Positions 27,545-56,915 of a stretch of 64,000 nt of DNA are shown here, in pieces. Positions within the stretch are counted from its first letter, which is position 1, and every line of letters begins with the position of its first letter. A model generated the notes under the pieces. That model was given only the letters and a program-made list of their open reading frames with translations, was not told the origin of the DNA and did not search any database. Source of the DNA: Deltaproteobacteria bacterium (GTDB lineage Bacteria > Desulfobacterota > B13-G15 > RBG-16-54-18); the NCBI GenBank assembly GCA_016927065.1, contig JAFGNJ010000019.1, forward strand, positions 1-64,000. Reading direction: 5' to 3'. The translations under genes and the position numbers were made by a program.

Positions 27545-27741
27545 TGAGAGACGCAGAGTCATACACTGCACATTCTCGCTGACATTCTTATGCTGGCACC
27601 AACCACCATCAGTCACAAGCTCATCTCTATAAGCTAACTAAGACATTGAACCTTGCTAAATTTTCTGGCGGATCCGGCAAAAGCCTTTATAGCTTTCTTT
27701 TGACAAGATCTCGCCAATCTTTTTGCTTTGCAAAAAATTGG

Positions 27742-27827
27742 CGGAGAGAGAGGGATTCGAACCCTCGGTACCGTTAGGCACACACGATTTCCAATCGTGC
27801 CCCTTCGGCCAGCTCGGGCATCTCTCC
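27742..27827 (-). tRNA. tRNA-Ser(GGA)
   Basis: A full cloverleaf with long variable arm. Acceptor GGAGAGA/TCTCTCC, D arm, anticodon loop TTGGAAA (anticodon GGA at 27792-27790), T arm with GGTTCGAATCC. The CCA is encoded (27741-27739). The 3' end with CCA forms one arm of a hairpin at 27713-27742. Confidence 0.95.
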
Positions 27828-27970
27828 GGGATTCTGTCGCTCCCGCTCTCCTCTTTAAATACAGGGATTACGGGATCCCGAAACGGGAAGAGCGGCAGGT
27901 TATAACTAAGCATTAAATAAAAACCCATTATAAGCTATACGTGGAATGTAGCAAAGCTACATTACCTGGC

Positions 27971-28005
27971 GGATCCGCTTCTCCGCCTTCGGCGGAGGAC
28001 GAGAT
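27971..28005. repeat. GC-rich palindromic repeat, copy 1
   Basis: Contains the hairpin CTCCGCCTTCGGCGGAG followed by GACGAGAT. A near-identical copy lies at 44849-44883, and a degenerate one at about 44918-44950. All are next to serine tRNA genes. The copies resemble REP-type or tRNA-trailer-derived repeats. Confidence 0.6.
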
Positions 28006-28167
28006 TTCAACAGACTTCTCTTATAATAAAGTAGGCGGATTCGTCGAAATCATTTTTAGTTTTTGTCGTAATCTCGCCATGTTTTTTGCTTTCAATAAGA
28101 TAGACGAATCCGTCAAAAGTATTTTTGGCTATTGACGAGATCTCGCCAAAATTTGCTTCGCAAATTT

Positions 28168-28260
<93 letters not shown>

Positions 28261-44890: not shown

Positions 44891-44985
44891 GTTTTTTGAC
44901 TTAAAATAAAAGGAGGCGGCTTCGCTTCTCCGTCTTCGGCGTAGCGCGAAATCTCGCCAATCTTTTTGCCCGGCAAAAAGATTGG

Positions 44986-45076
44986 CGGAGAGAGAGGGAT
45001 TCGAACCCTCGATCCCAGTTTCCCGGGATACTCGCTTAGCAGGCGAGCGCCTTCGGCCATACTCGGCCATCTCTCC
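44986..45076 (-). tRNA. tRNA-Ser(GCT)
   Basis: Cloverleaf with long variable arm. Acceptor GGAGAGA/TCTCTCC, anticodon loop CTGCTAA within CTCGC/GCGAG (anticodon GCT), T arm GGGTTCGAATCCC, encoded CCA (44985-44983). The CCA end is one arm of a perfect 14-bp hairpin at 44956-44986. Confidence 0.95.
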
Positions 45077-45297
45077 GCGGTTCTATTGCTGTGCGACAGT
45101 ATACTATTGGCTTATAGCTAATAGCCTATAATCTTTGTATGAAATTTCAGCAAAACTTGCAATAGTTTTTATCATCCTAGCAAATCAAAACATTCCTAAT
45201 GTGCATACTTGATCTCTGGCAAGCATCTCAAACCAAAAGCTATTGGCTATAAGCCACGCGTATCTCGCCATATTTTTTTGCAAGGCAAAAATGATGG

Positions 45298-45383
45298 CGG
45301 AGGGAGAGGGATTCGAACCCCCGTCTCCTTTCGGGAGAAGCGGTTTTCAAGACCGCCGCCTTAAGCCGCTCGGCCATCCCTCC
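45298..45383 (-). tRNA. tRNA-Ser(TGA)
   Basis: Cloverleaf with long variable arm. Acceptor GGAGGGA/TCCCTCC, anticodon loop CTTGAAA within GCGGT/ACCGC (anticodon TGA), T arm with GGTTCGAATCC, encoded CCA (45297-45295). A hairpin containing the CCA lies at 45267-45298. It lies downstream of serS on the same strand. Confidence 0.95.
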
Positions 45384-45505: not shown

Positions 45506-46786
45506 TTACCTTTTCCGCTCTATCTTTTCAATGCCGCCCATATATGGCCGCAGGGCCTTGGGAACCACCACGCTGCCGTCCTCCTGCTGATAGTTCTCGA
45601 GGACGGCCACCAGCGTCCTGCCCACGGCCAGGCCCGAACCGTTGAGGGTATGAACCAGTTCCGTCCCCTTTTTCCCCTCGCGGCGCAAGCGAATACCGGC
45701 CCGGCGGGCCTGAAACGTTTCGTAGATACTGCAGGAAGAAATCTCTTTAAATTCCCCCTGACCAGGGAGCCACACCTCGATATCATAGGTCTTGGAGGCG
45801 GCAAACCCTAAGTCTCCGGTGCAGAGGGCGACCACCCGATAGTGGATATCTAACCTGCGCAGGACCTCTTCGGCATCCCTCAAAAGCCCCTCCAACTCGG
45901 CGTACGAGGTCTCCGGCACGCAGAACTTGACCAGCTCCACCTTGTTGAATTGGTGCTGGCGGATGATACCCCGCGTGTCCTTCCCGTAGGAACCCGCCTC
46001 CTTGCGAAAACAGGGGGTATAGGCACAGTAGTACAGAGGCAAGTCCTGCTCGGAGAGGGTCTCATCCCGATGGATATTGGTCACCGGGACCTCGGCCGTG
46101 GGGATGAGAAAGTAGTCTAACCCCTCGATCTTGAAGAGGTCCTCTTCGAACTTGGGGAGCTGCCCGGTGCCGGTCATCACATCTCGGTTAACCATAAAGG
46201 GGGGCAAGACCTCCTGGTAGCCGTGCTCGTTGATGTGCAGATCGAGCATAAAGTTGATCAATGCCCGCTCCAGCCTGGCCCCCAGGTCCTTATACAGGGT
46301 AAACCGGGCCCCTGCCAGCTTGGCCCCCCTTTTAAAATCGAGGATACCAAGGGCCTCGCCGATATCCCAGTGGGGCTTGGGCTCAAATGAAAAGGCAGGC
46401 AGTTGACCGCACTTCCGTACCTCTTTGTTGTCCACTTCATTCTTTCCCACAGGGACCGACTCATGGGGGATATTGGGGATGACGAGGAGAAAGGACTGGA
46501 GCTTTTCCTCTTTTTCCTTCAGGTCTATCTCCAGCTTTTTGATCTCCTGGGAGACCTCGCGCATCTGGGCGACCAAATCCTCAGCCGCATCACCTTTCTG
46601 TTTGATTTTGCTGATCTCATCCGATACCTGATTGCGCTGGCTCCGAAGGGCCTCGACGTTTTGGATAAGGTCCCGACGCTCCTGGTCAACCTGGATAAAG
46701 GAATTCAGATCAAGATCGTCACCCCGCAAGGTTAGCTTTTTCTTAAGGAGATCTATGTTTTCTCTCACAAACCGCAGATCAAGCAC
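45506..46786 (-). CDS. serS: Seryl-tRNA synthetase
   Basis: A 426-residue class II synthetase. An N-terminal coiled-coil arm (about 1-110, '[20 protein letters not shown]') binds the long variable arm of tRNA-Ser. The catalytic domain has motif 2-like '[30 protein letters not shown]' (given here only to name the region) and motif 3 '[21 protein letters not shown]'. It starts with ATG at 46786 and is of normal length. The tRNA-Ser(TGA) and tRNA-Ser(GCT) genes follow directly downstream on the same strand. Confidence 0.95.
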
Positions 46787-50809: not shown

Positions 50810-52144
50810 ATGAAAAACGGCTCCTATCAAAAAAGAATCATGGGGATATATTCGTATATCAGTGAAAATCTCTACCTCAACAGACCGGATATAGAGATCA
50901 AAGGAAACCATTTCAACTCAACCCTCTTCTTCGGGATCCTGACCGGCCTCAATAGGGGCAAGGAACTGATCATTGGGGAACCTGGGTTGGGCAAGACCAC
51001 TTCAGCTGAGTACATAGGTTCTATCCTCTACCAATATCCCCTCGGAACCATCTGGGGAAGCGAAGTCTCCGGGCATCCTGAACAAACGGAGGAAAAGATT
51101 ATCGGGCGGCCCGATCTCGGTGAGCTCAATCAGGGCAAGGAGCAGGTGGTCTGGAGCAATTTCGCACAGATCCCCGTGAAGATCGTGGATGAGCTAAATC
51201 GTCTCCCTGAGACTAAACAAAGCATGATCTTGAATGGGGTCGATCGAGGAAACTGGGAATACCTCAATGAAATCCTTATCAATAACGAATATTCTCTCTT
51301 TGCAACGTCCAACTATCAAGACCGAGGGACAAACACCATTATCTCCCCTCTCATCGACCGGTTCGATGTCCTTATAGAATCGAGACACCCAGGTGCAAAC
51401 ATAGCATATAGCATCGGTAAAGAGGCGGAGACGAACCATATCCTAAGACACCCTGAATATGAAAAAGAACTTCACCATATATTAAGGGCAGATAAACCTT
51501 ATCAAGAAAAGATGGCACTGGCCGAGGGGATCTGCGATCTTTTCGGCAAATACCTCAAAGAACAGCTAGAAGTGGAAGGGCTTACTCTAGGTGAGAGAAA
51601 AAAGGTCAAGGAAGAGATGTCGGAACTAGAGTTCGATGTAGATGCCAACGCCTTCGTACGGATGGCGCTGGCCGAACTTTCATTCTGCTATAAGTACGGA
51701 CAAAAGAGGTCGGTGGACAACTGTGAGGAAGGATGTCACTATACAGGATATCTCTGCCATGACATCAAAAATTGTGCCTCCAATCGTCTCCCCGTATCCC
51801 TTAGAAATTACGCTCAGGCCGCAGCCTGGTTTTTGGAGGATGAGGGGGTAGACTTAGAACATGCTCGCTTGATCATGCCGCACGTCCTTGCTCACCGAAT
51901 CCAGTGGAAAGATTCCTACCTTTCCAAAAAGGAAGGGGAGGCAAGGGATGACCCCTTCCCAATATATCTAGCCAAGGAAGCAACGGAGGAGATATTTCAA
52001 CGCTACACCGAACAGAGAGAATATCTCCTGGAGGCCCTCTCGGTGGGATATAGAGCCTTCGCTGGAGAAGAGGCGTCCCTCCTTGAGGGAGACCATCCTA
52101 TTTATGAAGAAATTAAAAAGGATGTCGGATTCAAGAATGAATAA
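50810..52144 (+). CDS. MoxR-type AAA+ ATPase with a Cys4 insert
   Basis: A 444-residue ATPase. Walker A is G56-EPGLGKT63, Walker B 'VKIVDE' 123-128 continuing to 'LNR', sensor 1 'FATSN' 164-168, and a probable Arg finger at R184, as in MoxR/NorQ/CbbQ proteins that remodel or activate metal enzymes together with a VWA partner. Unusual is a cysteine group Cys305-x3-Cys309-x6-Cys316-x5-Cys322 with a His between, possibly binding zinc or Fe-S. The C-terminal ~120 residues are helical. It overlaps the next gene by 8 bases and is the first of a three-gene operon. There is no obvious target enzyme in the window. Confidence 0.83.
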   Translation: MKNGSYQKRIMGIYSYISENLYLNRPDIEIKGNHFNSTLFFGILTGLNRGKELIIGEPGLGKTTSAEYIGSILYQYPLGTIWGSEVSGHPEQTEEKIIGRPDLGELNQGKEQVVWSNFAQIPVKIVDELNRLPETKQSMILNGVDRGNWEYLNEILINNEYSLFATSNYQDRGTNTIISPLIDRFDVLIESRHPGANIAYSIGKEAETNHILRHPEYEKELHHILRADKPYQEKMALAEGICDLFGKYLKEQLEVEGLTLGERKKVKEEMSELEFDVDANAFVRMALAELSFCYKYGQKRSVDNCEEGCHYTGYLCHDIKNCASNRLPVSLRNYAQAAAWFLEDEGVDLEHARLIMPHVLAHRIQWKDSYLSKKEGEARDDPFPIYLAKEATEEIFQRYTEQREYLLEALSVGYRAFAGEEASLLEGDHPIYEEIKKDVGFKNE

Positions 52145-52835
52145 TCCCTTTGAGGCATTTCAACAATCCGTCGCTCACAATCGTACAATACCCTTGGATA
52201 ACATCTTAAAATCCAAAGGAGAAACGCTCAATAAGATTCTCACGGGGTATGAAGAACTTCTCAAGAACGAAGCAAAAGACTTAGTATGGCTCATGCAATA
52301 TAGCACCGTCATCAAGGCCTACAGCATAGCCGAAAAGGGGATAGTGGAAATCGATTATACGGCTGAAGATATCGAGGAGTTTTGCTATGCCCTTGACCAT
52401 TCCGACCAGATTCCCTACCTCATAACTGGTCCTGCCGGAGTATACGTCTCTGTCCTGTGCAACCACGCAAAAGAGGAGGAAATTAACCTTCACCTGCGGG
52501 ATCTCAATGTCAAGATTAACTTATTGGGTTACCGCCTCCCCTACAATAAAAAATTAGTTGTAGAGGGGAATGTAGGTGACTTTGCAGGGATAGGATTGGA
52601 TGGAGGTGAACTGATCATCGAGGGGAGCGGAAAAAACTATACAGGTGCAGGAATGAAGCAGGGTAAGATCTATGTGCGGCATAACCTCGGTTTTAACACC
52701 GGCCACGGTATGACAGGCGGGCAACTGATTGTAGGGGGGCGGATTAAAGGGTTAGGGAAAATAGTGGGAGGAGAAATATACGAGAGGGATCAGCTCATTT
52801 TTCCTCCTGATGGGATAAAACCTTTTAATTTTTGA
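52137..52835 (+). CDS. GXGXG-domain protein between the ATPase and VWA genes
   Basis: 232 residues. Residues 1-135 are mixed helical and not recognised. Residues 137-223 form a GXGXG beta-helix turn series ('EGNVGDFAGIGLDGGELIIEG', 'GAGMKQGKIYV', 'GHGMTGGQLIVGG'), the fold of the C-terminal domain of glutamate synthase GltB and of the formylmethanofuran dehydrogenase C subunit. No catalytic residues are evident, so it may be a scaffold or substrate-recognition part. ATG at 52137 overlaps the ATPase stop; AAGGATG lies about ten bases upstream. A longer frame from 52083 lies within the ATPase gene and is rejected. Confidence 0.75.
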   Translation: MNNPFEAFQQSVAHNRTIPLDNILKSKGETLNKILTGYEELLKNEAKDLVWLMQYSTVIKAYSIAEKGIVEIDYTAEDIEEFCYALDHSDQIPYLITGPAGVYVSVLCNHAKEEEINLHLRDLNVKINLLGYRLPYNKKLVVEGNVGDFAGIGLDGGELIIEGSGKNYTGAGMKQGKIYVRHNLGFNTGHGMTGGQLIVGGRIKGLGKIVGGEIYERDQLIFPPDGIKPFNF

Positions 52836-52844
52836 CCATTAACA

Positions 52845-54410
52845 ATGGAACTAGAAAAAATAATTAAAAAAGTTTGGCCCCTGGTAAGGAAAAAACACCT
52901 TTTTCCCCATATACCACTGCCTTCAGTTGTTGAAGGAGGTGATGATATCGCCCTAGAGATCAAGAGCAAACAACTCCTCATCAGCAACGCCTTTTTCGAA
53001 AAACTCAAGGCCAAAATGGATGAAGAGGAAATCGTCGAAACTATTCTTGACCACGGACTTACCCATTATATGTATTGTCCCTGGGATTTTCACACCCATC
53101 TCTCTCTCTATAGCGAGGCAAAAAAAGTGGTGCACCAAAAAGAACAGGCCCAGCGGGCTACCACCTATTTCATGGATGTGGTAACTGATACCTATTGTAT
53201 CAAAGAAAAAAACACAAAAATAGCGAAATTATATAAAAACCTCCCCAAGAATGGTATGACCGAGGTCCTCACTGCCCTCTATGAAAAGATCTGGGGGGAA
53301 GATCTGGAAAGTGGAGGGCATGAAGAACTCGTCAATCGCCTCTCCCGGATTCCTTACTTGGAACGGGCGAAATGGGGAGACAGCGTCAAAAAATTCACTC
53401 AAGTTATCCAACCCCTCCTCGAAGAAGAAGTTGAAAATACACACCAGAACTCCCAGAGAGGACCAAATCCATTAGGAGAGCATTCTCTTGATAACTACTC
53501 TTTAGATGAAATTGACCGTGGAATGAGGGAATTCGCCTCCGCAGTGGATAACCTCCAGGAGTTCAAGGAGACGGTTGAAGATTTGCGAGAGGAATTAGAA
53601 AAAAAGGGTTACGGCACAGGCGGCATGGGCAGAGGTAGAGGCAACCACCCCCTCGATGCCAACCTCCTTTATTATATGAAGCTGGCCGAAAGCTATACAC
53701 TTCCTGTTAGACAACTCCCCATCGAAAAGCGAGGATACCTTCATCCACATTCCCATAAACCCTGGGAAATAGGGAAACCCTTCGCAGATATCGATCTATG
53801 GACCAGCTTCGGCAAAATCATGCCGGGCATGACACAAATTTGGACCAAGCAAGAGGGAGAAACTCACGGAGAGCTAGAGGGTACACCTGATTGCCTTATT
53901 ATAATCGATTCTTCCGGAAGCATGATTAATCCGAGCGAAAGGTTATCGTACGCTGTCTTGGGGGCCGCCTGTGCGTGCAATGCCTACCGCAAACAGGAAT
54001 CAAAAGTGGCTGTGTATAATTTTAGTGACGCCTTACGAGGAAATAAAATTATCGTGGACTTCAACTGTGAAAAGGACCGGATTTACGCCGCCATCTGCCG
54101 ATATTTCGGTGGAGGCACCGCCTTGGATTTGAATGATATTATACACCTCCTTTCACGTACCGATATTCCCGATATCTTTATCATAACGGATATGCAGATA
54201 ACAAATCTCGAAAAGGTCATCGATTTCGTCAACACGATTGAAAACAGGGTAACAGCGGTCCATGTCGGGCATAATGCCCATTCCACGCGTTTTAAGGATG
54301 GAACCAAAAAAAATAGAAATATTTCTCTTTTTAACATCAAGGAAAAAGAAGATATTCCGAAGATAATTCTTGGGAAAGTAGACGAATATTTGAACTCTCC
54401 CGTGAGATAA
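52845..54410 (+). CDS. VWA-domain protein with N-terminal HxxxH minigluzincin-like domain
   Basis: 521 residues. The N-terminal ~130 residues resemble the putative metallopeptidase part of DUF2201-like proteins: 'ETILDHGLTHYMYCPWD' has His70-x3-His74, but Gly stands where HExxH has its catalytic Glu, so peptidase activity is doubtful. A Gln/Glu-rich helical linker and a Gly/Arg-rich stretch (about 255-268) follow. The C-terminal VWA domain starts near 345, with MIDAS D355-S-S357-G-S359, 'GGGTALD' and 'IITDMQ'. VWA proteins pair with MoxR ATPases (CoxE, NorD, CbbO). Nine bases after the GXGXG gene; last gene of the operon. Confidence 0.8.
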   Translation: MELEKIIKKVWPLVRKKHLFPHIPLPSVVEGGDDIALEIKSKQLLISNAFFEKLKAKMDEEEIVETILDHGLTHYMYCPWDFHTHLSLYSEAKKVVHQKEQAQRATTYFMDVVTDTYCIKEKNTKIAKLYKNLPKNGMTEVLTALYEKIWGEDLESGGHEELVNRLSRIPYLERAKWGDSVKKFTQVIQPLLEEEVENTHQNSQRGPNPLGEHSLDNYSLDEIDRGMREFASAVDNLQEFKETVEDLREELEKKGYGTGGMGRGRGNHPLDANLLYYMKLAESYTLPVRQLPIEKRGYLHPHSHKPWEIGKPFADIDLWTSFGKIMPGMTQIWTKQEGETHGELEGTPDCLIIIDSSGSMINPSERLSYAVLGAACACNAYRKQESKVAVYNFSDALRGNKIIVDFNCEKDRIYAAICRYFGGGTALDLNDIIHLLSRTDIPDIFIITDMQITNLEKVIDFVNTIENRVTAVHVGHNAHSTRFKDGTKKNRNISLFNIKEKEDIPKIILGKVDEYLNSPVR

Positions 54411-54481: not shown

Positions 54482-54510
54482 TTGACAGAATGAGATGCTG
54501 TGATTATGAT
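54482..54510 (+). promoter_or_regulatory. Strong sigma-70-type promoter of lon
   Basis: TTGACA (54482-54487), 17 bases, TATGAT (54505-54510). The lon ATG is 45 bases downstream, preceded by AAGGAGG (54543-54549). No sigma-32-type element seen. Confidence 0.75.
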
Positions 54511-54554: not shown

Positions 54555-56915
54555 ATGATATTCGTACCACGATCTAAAGGCGAAAAGGGGACTGAAAAAA
54601 TCTTTATCCCCAACCGCCTGCCTATACTACCCTTACGCGGAACCGTCCTTTTTCCTGAACTTATCCTCCCAATCATGGTAGGGCGTAAAAAATCCGTAAA
54701 ATTGATAGACGAGGCCATGGAAGGAGACCGGATTATCGGGGTTGTAACCCAACATAGCTCTGAAGTTGAAGAACCTGATGCACATGAACTGTATGACATC
54801 GGGGTAGCAGCGCATGTGGTCCGCATGGTTCGGGAAATGGACGGAACTCAACGGGTTATCGTCCAAGGACTTGAGCGTATTAGGATTTCTCGTTATACGC
54901 AAAAAGATCCCTATTTTATAGCAGAGGTAAAGGTACTCCTAGATGAAGAGACAAGTGGAGTTGAAATCGATGCGCTCATTATGAATCTGAAAAATCTCTT
55001 TCAACGGGCGGTGGAATTAGCACCGCACCTCACCGTTGATCTGAAGAACATGGTCCTGAATATCAAGGACCCCGGTATCCTTGCCGATATAGTTGCTTCC
55101 AACCTCAATATCAATCCAACGGAAAAACAAGAGGTATTAGAAATAGAAAACGTAAAGACACGCCTTGATAAGGTTCATCACTTGTTAGCCCGGGAGGTTC
55201 AGATATTGGAATTGGGTGACAAAATTCAAACCCAGGTTAAAGAGGACATTGACAAGACGCAACGAGAATACTATCTCCGAGAACAAATGAAGGCCATCAA
55301 AAAAGAACTGGGAGAAATAGATGATCATAGTTCCGAGTTAAAGGAGTTAAAAGAAAAGGTGGAAAGTGCGGGAATGCCCGAAGAAGCGCGCAAGGCCGCC
55401 GATAAGGAACTTGATAGACTCACCAAGATGCCGCCCGCTTCCGCCGAATATACAGTGGCTAGGACTTATCTCGATTGGCTTGTAGATCTCCCCTGGGCCA
55501 AAAGTACTGATGATAACCTCGATATTGACCATGCCCAGAAGATTTTGAACGAAGATCATTATGACTTAGAGAAGGTGAAAAAACGGATTTTAGAATATCT
55601 AGCCGTGCGCAAGTTGAAGAAGGACATGAAGGGCCCTATCCTCTGTTTTGTGGGGCCACCCGGAGTCGGGAAGACCTCCCTGGGAATGTCCATCGCCAGG
55701 GCCATGGATCGTAAGTTCACCAGGATCTCTCTAGGCGGTGTACGAGATGAGGCGGAGATCCGGGGACACAGGAGAACCTATGTCGGTGCCCTGCCAGGCA
55801 GGATCATTCAAGGCGTAAAAAAAACCGCAAGCAACAATCCTATCTTTATGCTTGATGAGGTGGATAAGATCGGCACAGATTTCAGGGGGGATCCATCCTC
55901 TGCCCTGCTGGAGGTGCTGGACCCTGAACAGAACTTCTCATTTTCAGACCACTACATCGACATCCCCTTTGATCTCTCTAAGGTCATGTTCATCACCACG
56001 GCCAATATACTCGAGACCATTCCACCGGCCTTAAAGGACCGTATGGAGGTCTTGGAGCTGCCCGGGTACTCTGATGATGAGAAGCTGATGATTGCCAAGC
56101 AACATCTTATCCCCAAACAGCTCAGCGAACACGGGCTCTCTGATGAGCTCCTAGAATTCAAAGATGAGCCTCTCCTGGCGATCATAAACTCCTACACGCG
56201 AGAGGCCGGGGTGCGAAACCTCGAGCGGGAGATCGCAGCAGTCTGTCGGGCAGTTGCCAAAGAGGTGGCCGAAGGAAAACAGGAAAAGGTGACGGTGCAG
56301 ACGGATAAGACGGACATGCTGCATAGATTCTTAGGGCCTGTTAAGTTCTTCCCTGAGGTGGCGGAGAGGACGTCCCACCCGGGGGTGGCAACCGGGCTTG
56401 CCTGGACTCCCACCGGCGGAGACATCATCTTCGTGGAGGCCACCAAGATGAACGGCGAAAAGGGACTCTCCCTCACCGGACAACTGGGGGAGGTGATGAA
56501 GGAATCCGCCCAGGCCGCCCTCAGTTACATCAGGTCCAAGGCCAAGGATCTGGGCATCGAGGAAAACTTCTATCAAAAAAACGATATCCACATCCACGTC
56601 CCGGCCGGCGCCATTCCCAAAGATGGACCGTCAGCAGGGATTGCCATGTTTATAGCCCTAACTTCATTGCTGACCAATAAACCTGTGCGCAACGATGTGG
56701 CCATGACCGGTGAGATCACCTTGCGGGGTCTCATCCTCCCCGTCGGCGGTATCAAGGAGAAGGTCTTGGCGGGGAAGAGAGCAGGAATCAAAACTATCAT
56801 CCTCCCTAAAAAGAACGAGAAGGACCTCGAAGAGCTGGCAGACCATGTCAAAGAGGGACTGGAATTCAAGTTTGTCCAACGGATGGATGAAGTAGTAAAA
56901 ATAGCCCTCTCATAG
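54555..56915 (+). CDS. lon: ATP-dependent protease Lon
   Basis: 786 residues, normal length. N-terminal substrate domain ('LPILPLRGTVLFPELILPI'), AAA+ module with Walker A 'GPPGVGKTS' (about residue 367), Walker B 'FMLDEVDKIG' and the C-terminal serine protease domain with 'DGPSAGIAM' (Ser about 693) and the catalytic Lys in 'GGIKEKVLAG' (about 735). Cytosolic quality-control protease. It follows the VWA gene after 144 bases but has its own promoter. Confidence 0.96.
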   Translation: MIFVPRSKGEKGTEKIFIPNRLPILPLRGTVLFPELILPIMVGRKKSVKLIDEAMEGDRIIGVVTQHSSEVEEPDAHELYDIGVAAHVVRMVREMDGTQRVIVQGLERIRISRYTQKDPYFIAEVKVLLDEETSGVEIDALIMNLKNLFQRAVELAPHLTVDLKNMVLNIKDPGILADIVASNLNINPTEKQEVLEIENVKTRLDKVHHLLAREVQILELGDKIQTQVKEDIDKTQREYYLREQMKAIKKELGEIDDHSSELKELKEKVESAGMPEEARKAADKELDRLTKMPPASAEYTVARTYLDWLVDLPWAKSTDDNLDIDHAQKILNEDHYDLEKVKKRILEYLAVRKLKKDMKGPILCFVGPPGVGKTSLGMSIARAMDRKFTRISLGGVRDEAEIRGHRRTYVGALPGRIIQGVKKTASNNPIFMLDEVDKIGTDFRGDPSSALLEVLDPEQNFSFSDHYIDIPFDLSKVMFITTANILETIPPALKDRMEVLELPGYSDDEKLMIAKQHLIPKQLSEHGLSDELLEFKDEPLLAIINSYTREAGVRNLEREIAAVCRAVAKEVAEGKQEKVTVQTDKTDMLHRFLGPVKFFPEVAERTSHPGVATGLAWTPTGGDIIFVEATKMNGEKGLSLTGQLGEVMKESAQAALSYIRSKAKDLGIEENFYQKNDIHIHVPAGAIPKDGPSAGIAMFIALTSLLTNKPVRNDVAMTGEITLRGLILPVGGIKEKVLAGKRAGIKTIILPKKNEKDLEELADHVKEGLEFKFVQRMDEVVKIALS

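Follow-up and report, generated by a model that had tools for sequence, protein, structure and literature searches.

MoxR-VWA pairs are usually encoded beside their target. The window studied here, i.e., the whole analysed stretch of 64,000 nucleotides of DNA, carries such a pair with the gene of a GXGXG protein between its two members. The question is what the middle protein does in this company and where the target is encoded. The three genes span positions 50810-54410 of the + strand in the order AAA, GXGXG, VWA:

50810..52144, + strand: AAA+ (MoxR-like) gene, 444 aa
52137..52835, + strand: GXGXG beta-helix gene, 232 aa
52845..54410, + strand: VWA gene, 521 aa

The first-pass annotation described the genes as overlapping or 9 bases apart, and this is their arrangement: the GXGXG gene, with its ATG at 52137, shares 8 nt with the end of the AAA gene, and the VWA start follows 9 nt after the GXGXG stop. 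The start of the GXGXG gene is best set at this ATG because the homologues open with “M.NPF” there. A scan of the window for terminator-like sites gave no more of them than shuffled sequence did, and the next gene, lon (54555-56915, +), has its own strong promoter-like site (54482-54510). Together these observations make a single transcription unit for the triad most likely, as far as the sequence can tell. The position of lon directly 3' of the triad is shared by the window's family and, within the same order, by a single genome of another family (L037-L042), even where the upstream genes differ. Elsewhere in the window, two tRNA-Ser genes (TGA, 45295-45383; GCT, 44983-45076) come after serS (45506-46786, -) on its own strand, and two further tRNA-Ser genes are located at 27739-28260.

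To assess the spread of the triad beyond the phylum, the middle protein was searched against 84,980 named species genomes. This yielded 39 loci, nearly all in MAGs of Deltaproteobacteria/Thermodesulfobacteriota, and the order AAA-GXGXG-VWA is found in all 38 loci with a complete middle gene. Within the phylum, we used an evenly sampled set of 297 genomes with thresholds of E<=1e-20 for the AAA protein and E<=1e-15 for the VWA protein. The two proteins occur in an identical set of 34 genomes. GXGXG matches that include the N-terminal domain are confined to the same 34 genomes, and the remaining matches among the 297 cover the beta-helix part only. The middle gene could have been found mostly without the other two; instead, its full-length form is found only in genomes with both AAA and VWA. 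The three genes are adjacent in 33 of the 34 triad genomes, so that their co-occurrence is partly plain linkage; the single unlinked case is G046, which retains all three genes with a distance of 0.33 Mb between AAA and the VWA-GXGXG pair. The gene trees are congruent (tree-distance r 0.90-0.94, with 0-1 supported conflicts), and dN of ~0.01-0.13 against dS of ~0.13-2 indicates purifying selection. The fixed order, the shared set of genomes, the agreement of the trees and dN far below dS show that the triad is not a chance assembly. Its neighbourhoods differ between clades (uvrA/lon, gmk-rpoZ-HD, type IV pilin genes, AOR genes and others). Thus the conserved unit is the triad and not its surroundings, and on these comparative grounds the three genes are inherited as one unit. 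The GXGXG gene had been grouped earlier with the MoxR-VWA pair as a three-gene operon, and the counts of 34/297 and 38/38 support the GXGXG protein as a conserved third part.

Candidates for a fourth part were rejected. The HD-domain gene, present at 14 loci, is limited to one clade with conserved synteny; the same is true of lon, which in addition has the promoter-like site mentioned above. A phage or plasmid origin of the triad was rejected as well: there was no PHROG match of note and no plasmid match.

Two of the 34 triad genomes have an additional lone GXGXG paralogue. These stand-alone proteins of 217-222 aa (L107 8458-9126, -; L124 5579-6232, -) have a charged helix-rich N-terminal part and a very short GXGXG part, belong to two genomes of family f39 and lie away from the triad genes. 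In another sequence, labelled Dehalococcoidia (L075 1119-4208), residues 1-92 of the GXGXG protein are joined in frame with unrelated sequence in a 1029-aa ORF; misassembly or a deletion is possible there.

A divergent sister set, designated type B as opposed to type A of the window, keeps all three parts in the order AAA-VWA-GXGXG. It was found in G013, G141, G167 and G046; in G167 the set is split across contigs, and in G046 its AAA gene is unlinked. Type B proteins are ~25-35% identical to those of the window, and both types are present in G013 and G167. The GXGXG families of the two types match each other in a profile comparison with a probability of 99.4%, from residue 92 (in the helical N-terminal domain) onward. 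In G046, the unlinked AAA gene of this type (L106 7705-9030) is oriented divergently from heterodisulfide-reductase-like (HdrA) genes.

The AAA protein matches AAA_5 with 26.3 bits (Pfam cut-off 22). It has Walker A (GEPGLGKT), Walker B/DE (D127, E128), the sensor-1 Asn (N168) and the Arg of a DRF motif (R184). These motifs are invariant in 44/44 type A sequences (one is truncated before Walker A) and are also kept in the type B sequences checked. The closest solved structure by sequence is 2r44, a weak match. The protein also has a cysteine cluster that the first-pass annotation missed:

51686..51775, + strand: codons of the Cys cluster in the AAA lid, C293 to C322, C-x11-C-x3-C-x6-C-x5-C

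The cluster is placed at the start of the lid because the match of AAA_lid_2 (PF17863) begins at residue 329. C293, C305, C309 and C316 are invariant in type A (44/44) and in type B, and C322 is invariant in type A. The four lid cysteines probably form a Zn or Fe-S site or act as a redox sensor. By its conserved residues, the AAA protein is an AAA+ motor whose catalytic positions are intact and whose lid has a four-cysteine site. Since it adjoins a VWA protein with a MIDAS, the early recognition of a MoxR-VWA pair was correct.

The GXGXG protein consists of two domains, a helical N-terminal one (~19-110) and a short beta-helix (~115-222). The AlphaFold2 model (pLDDT 83.5, pTM 0.79) places helices at 19-45, 55-69, 76-87 and 97-110, with the beta-helix after them. 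The Pfam GXGXG score of the window protein (18.4 bits) is below the cut-off of 32.5, which its relatives exceed. A profile search recovered FwdC of known structure at 3.5e-25, and the best Foldseek matches of the model were FhcC, FwdC and GltS, all of them weak (best E 0.08). Against the FwdC model (TIGR03122) the protein scores 40.4 bits, with a curated cut-off of 130.65, and no Fwd genes were recognised next to the triad in the loci examined. The low score, the extra N-terminal domain and the lack of Fwd partners mean that the protein is not a FwdC. Its conserved positions are mostly glycines and structural residues, and the alignment of homologues contains no invariant His or Asp cluster. 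Judged by this alignment, the protein has two domains, one of them a beta-helix, and no conserved catalytic site. It may serve as the substrate-recognition part, as suggested earlier.

The VWA protein has a metallopeptidase-like N-terminal domain (H70, H74, D111), a linker and a C-terminal VWA domain. Its VWA_2 match of 22.3 bits is below the Pfam cut-off of 27, while the sister set is above it. The MIDAS is intact (D355, S357, S359, T425, D449) and is kept in all readable sequences. An HxxxH motif had been noted at first reading, and H70 and H74 are indeed invariant in 44/44 homologues, as is D111 in type A. At position 71, 44/44 type A sequences have Gly or Ala and type B has Glu, i.e., type A has HG/AxxH, whereas HHELNHW (HExxH) is found in 4/4 type B sequences. 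The type A domain therefore looks like a metal-binding, non-proteolytic version. A profile-profile comparison gave a weak match (probability 56%) to DUF2201_N, a “putative metallopeptidase”, which covers the HxxxH helix and the Asp after it; the Pfam search gave no PF13203 match at E<=1. With the whole AlphaFold2 model (pLDDT 80.2), Foldseek retrieved mainly VWA domains, among them that of NorD (NorQ-NorD entries 9qh8 and 9qhd), and no peptidase fold. The linker is a separate feature:

53655..53885, + strand: codons of the VWA linker, residues 271-347, directly before the VWA domain

It is conserved like the VWA domain itself (mean majority 0.75), and residues 294-343 are predicted with pLDDT below 50. 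The linker is likely an interaction surface, to judge by its conservation. In NorD, which is driven by NorQ, iron insertion requires the linker that precedes the VWA domain (PMC13036017). Neither the metallopeptidase-like domain nor the conserved linker was seen in the first-pass annotation.

Comparison of the loci revealed no neighbour gene shared across the triad clades other than the triad genes themselves, in agreement with the initial remark that no target enzyme is adjacent. The best reading is that the client is encoded elsewhere in the genome. If a client is dedicated to the triad, no complete triad genome should lack it. Other GXGXG proteins, glutamate synthase, molybdenum hydroxylases and CODH/HCP are each absent from at least one triad genome of at least 95% completeness. 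In particular, the GXGXG gene of the triad is the only one (PF01493) in G006 (98% complete), G171 (99%) and G140 (95%), and G006 has no glutamate synthase. The proposal that the middle protein mimics a GXGXG-bearing enzyme is therefore rejected as a general rule, and glutamate synthase is rejected as an obligate client. Molybdenum hydroxylases (PF02738) are missing in the complete triad genomes G046, G140 and G141, and CODH/HCP (PF03063) in G046, G141 and G171, so that neither can be an obligate target. Of the candidates tested, only aldehyde:ferredoxin oxidoreductase (AOR, PF01314) occurs in all 34 triad genomes. In family f9 there are single ORFs of ~2530-2570 aa with a GXGXG domain (G258:C6, G195:C5, G088:C90, G238:C106, G145:C74, G053:C21); most of them also carry a glutamate synthase domain, which makes an unusually large fused glutamate-synthase-like protein.

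Several known systems resemble the triad in part. NorQ/NorD and CbbQ/CbbO share with it an AAA+ motor and a VWA adaptor built of an N-terminal domain, a linker and a C-terminal VWA domain with a MIDAS; unlike them, the triad has an obligate GXGXG subunit, a Cys4 lid, a metallopeptidase-like N-terminal domain and no adjacent target. Pairs of MoxR with DUF2201_N/DUF2201 proteins (PF13203, PF09967) likewise have an HExxH-type N-terminal domain followed by VWA and an adjoining AAA gene. However, the triad VWA protein is below the Pfam cut-offs, the AAA proteins align at the P-loop only, and the examples of DUF2201 pairs that we examined have no GXGXG gene alongside. FwdC/FhcC and the GXGXG domain of glutamate synthase share the GXGXG beta-helix and give the best sequence and fold matches, but the triad protein has a shorter helix, an extra helical N-terminal domain and no Fwd or Glt partner genes. 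Finally, MoxR-vWA-centric ternary systems combine MoxR and vWA with a further conserved component such as VMAP, iSTAND, FtsH or a beta-propeller (PMC7159879), whereas the third part of the triad is a beta-helix, no effectors are seen and inheritance is stable. The triad had been called a system of an undescribed kind. None of the family libraries searched (Pfam, NCBIfam, PADLOC, PHROG) assigns it a function; nor did any paper combine MoxR with GXGXG in the literature searched, which covered few subscription papers. The label nevertheless goes too far, because MoxR-vWA systems with a third component are already known, with other third parts. What is new is the beta-helix third part, the Cys4 lid and the change from HExxH to HGxxH in the N-terminal domain.

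We consider it somewhat more probable than not that the triad is an ATP-driven remodelling machine of the MoxR-VWA class, in which the beta-helix protein is an obligate clamp or adaptor and whose client is encoded elsewhere. The AAA subunits would assemble as a hexamer, on which the VWA protein may dock as NorD does on NorQ, with a finger in the pore. ATP hydrolysis would then pull on the VWA linker. The GXGXG protein would hold or present the client, by analogy with FwdC, which bridges the two catalytic modules of formylmethanofuran dehydrogenase and strengthens the interface between them (PMC11656701). The opened client could receive a metal or cofactor, or be freed of an inhibitor; a role in metal insertion would apply by analogy with other MoxR-VWA pairs. 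This reading draws on the identical set of 34/297 genomes, which includes the unlinked G046, on the 38/38 order, the congruent trees and the kept AAA and MIDAS residues. The NorD match of the VWA model, FwdC as the nearest relative of the beta-helix and a sister triad with all three parts point the same way.

Since targets of MoxR-VWA pairs are usually adjacent, the GXGXG protein could itself be the client: it strictly adjoins the pair in both triad types and is the only invariant neighbour. The AAA-VWA pair would then assemble or disassemble the GXGXG structure or load it with a metal. The glycine-rich, structural character of its conservation, without a His or Asp cluster, and the lack of an associated enzyme subunit make this unlikely, if still worth serious weight. 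A regulated peptidase, in which the AAA protein feeds substrates picked by the GXGXG protein to a zincin-like VWA N-terminal domain that is active in the sister set, would fit the HHELNHW motif, the invariant H70, H74 and D111 and the weak DUF2201_N match. However, the catalytic Glu is replaced in 44/44 type A sequences, so proteolysis cannot be a function shared by both triad types, and the VWA model has no peptidase-fold match; we regard this explanation as improbable. Lower still, and hardly credible, is a defence or conflict system like those of Kaur et al. 2020. The logic of MoxR-vWA plus a third part is shared (PMC7159879), but Pfam, NCBIfam and PADLOC reveal no VMAP, iSTAND, FtsH or beta-propeller part and no PADLOC match of note, no plasmid copy of the VWA gene was found, and the triad is stably inherited, its trees being congruent and its effectors showing no turnover.

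A narrower form of the clamp or adaptor machine, counted inside it, takes the tungsten/molybdenum AOR family as the client. AOR is present in 34/34 triad genomes versus 196/263 others (Fisher 9e-5, with kinship ignored). In G284 and in one genus of family f3, the triad has an AOR gene 2-5 kb upstream, and the only f1 genome without the triad (G002, 82% complete) also has no AOR. On the other hand, the nearby AOR genes are on the opposite strand and could be there by chance in AOR-rich genomes, and AOR alone remained from a small fishing exercise in which four other families failed. Because the triad genomes represent ~14 families and AOR is common in the phylum (230/297), AOR is a lead and not a result, and we hold it to be decidedly unlikely as the client. 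A bolder version, in which an FwdC-type beta-helix clamp docks the client, a metal or redox-sensing Cys4 lid gates the motor and the whole is a new class of MoxR-VWA maturation machine of strict anaerobes, for tungsten or other low-potential metalloenzymes with the AOR family as first suspects, is quite unlikely, marginally less so than the AOR assignment.

MoxR-VWA pairs mature important metalloenzymes. The triad has been kept in many families of uncultured anaerobes, mostly known from MAGs. A strictly conserved third subunit with a fold that clamps enzyme modules would give a direct handle on how such machines dock their clients.
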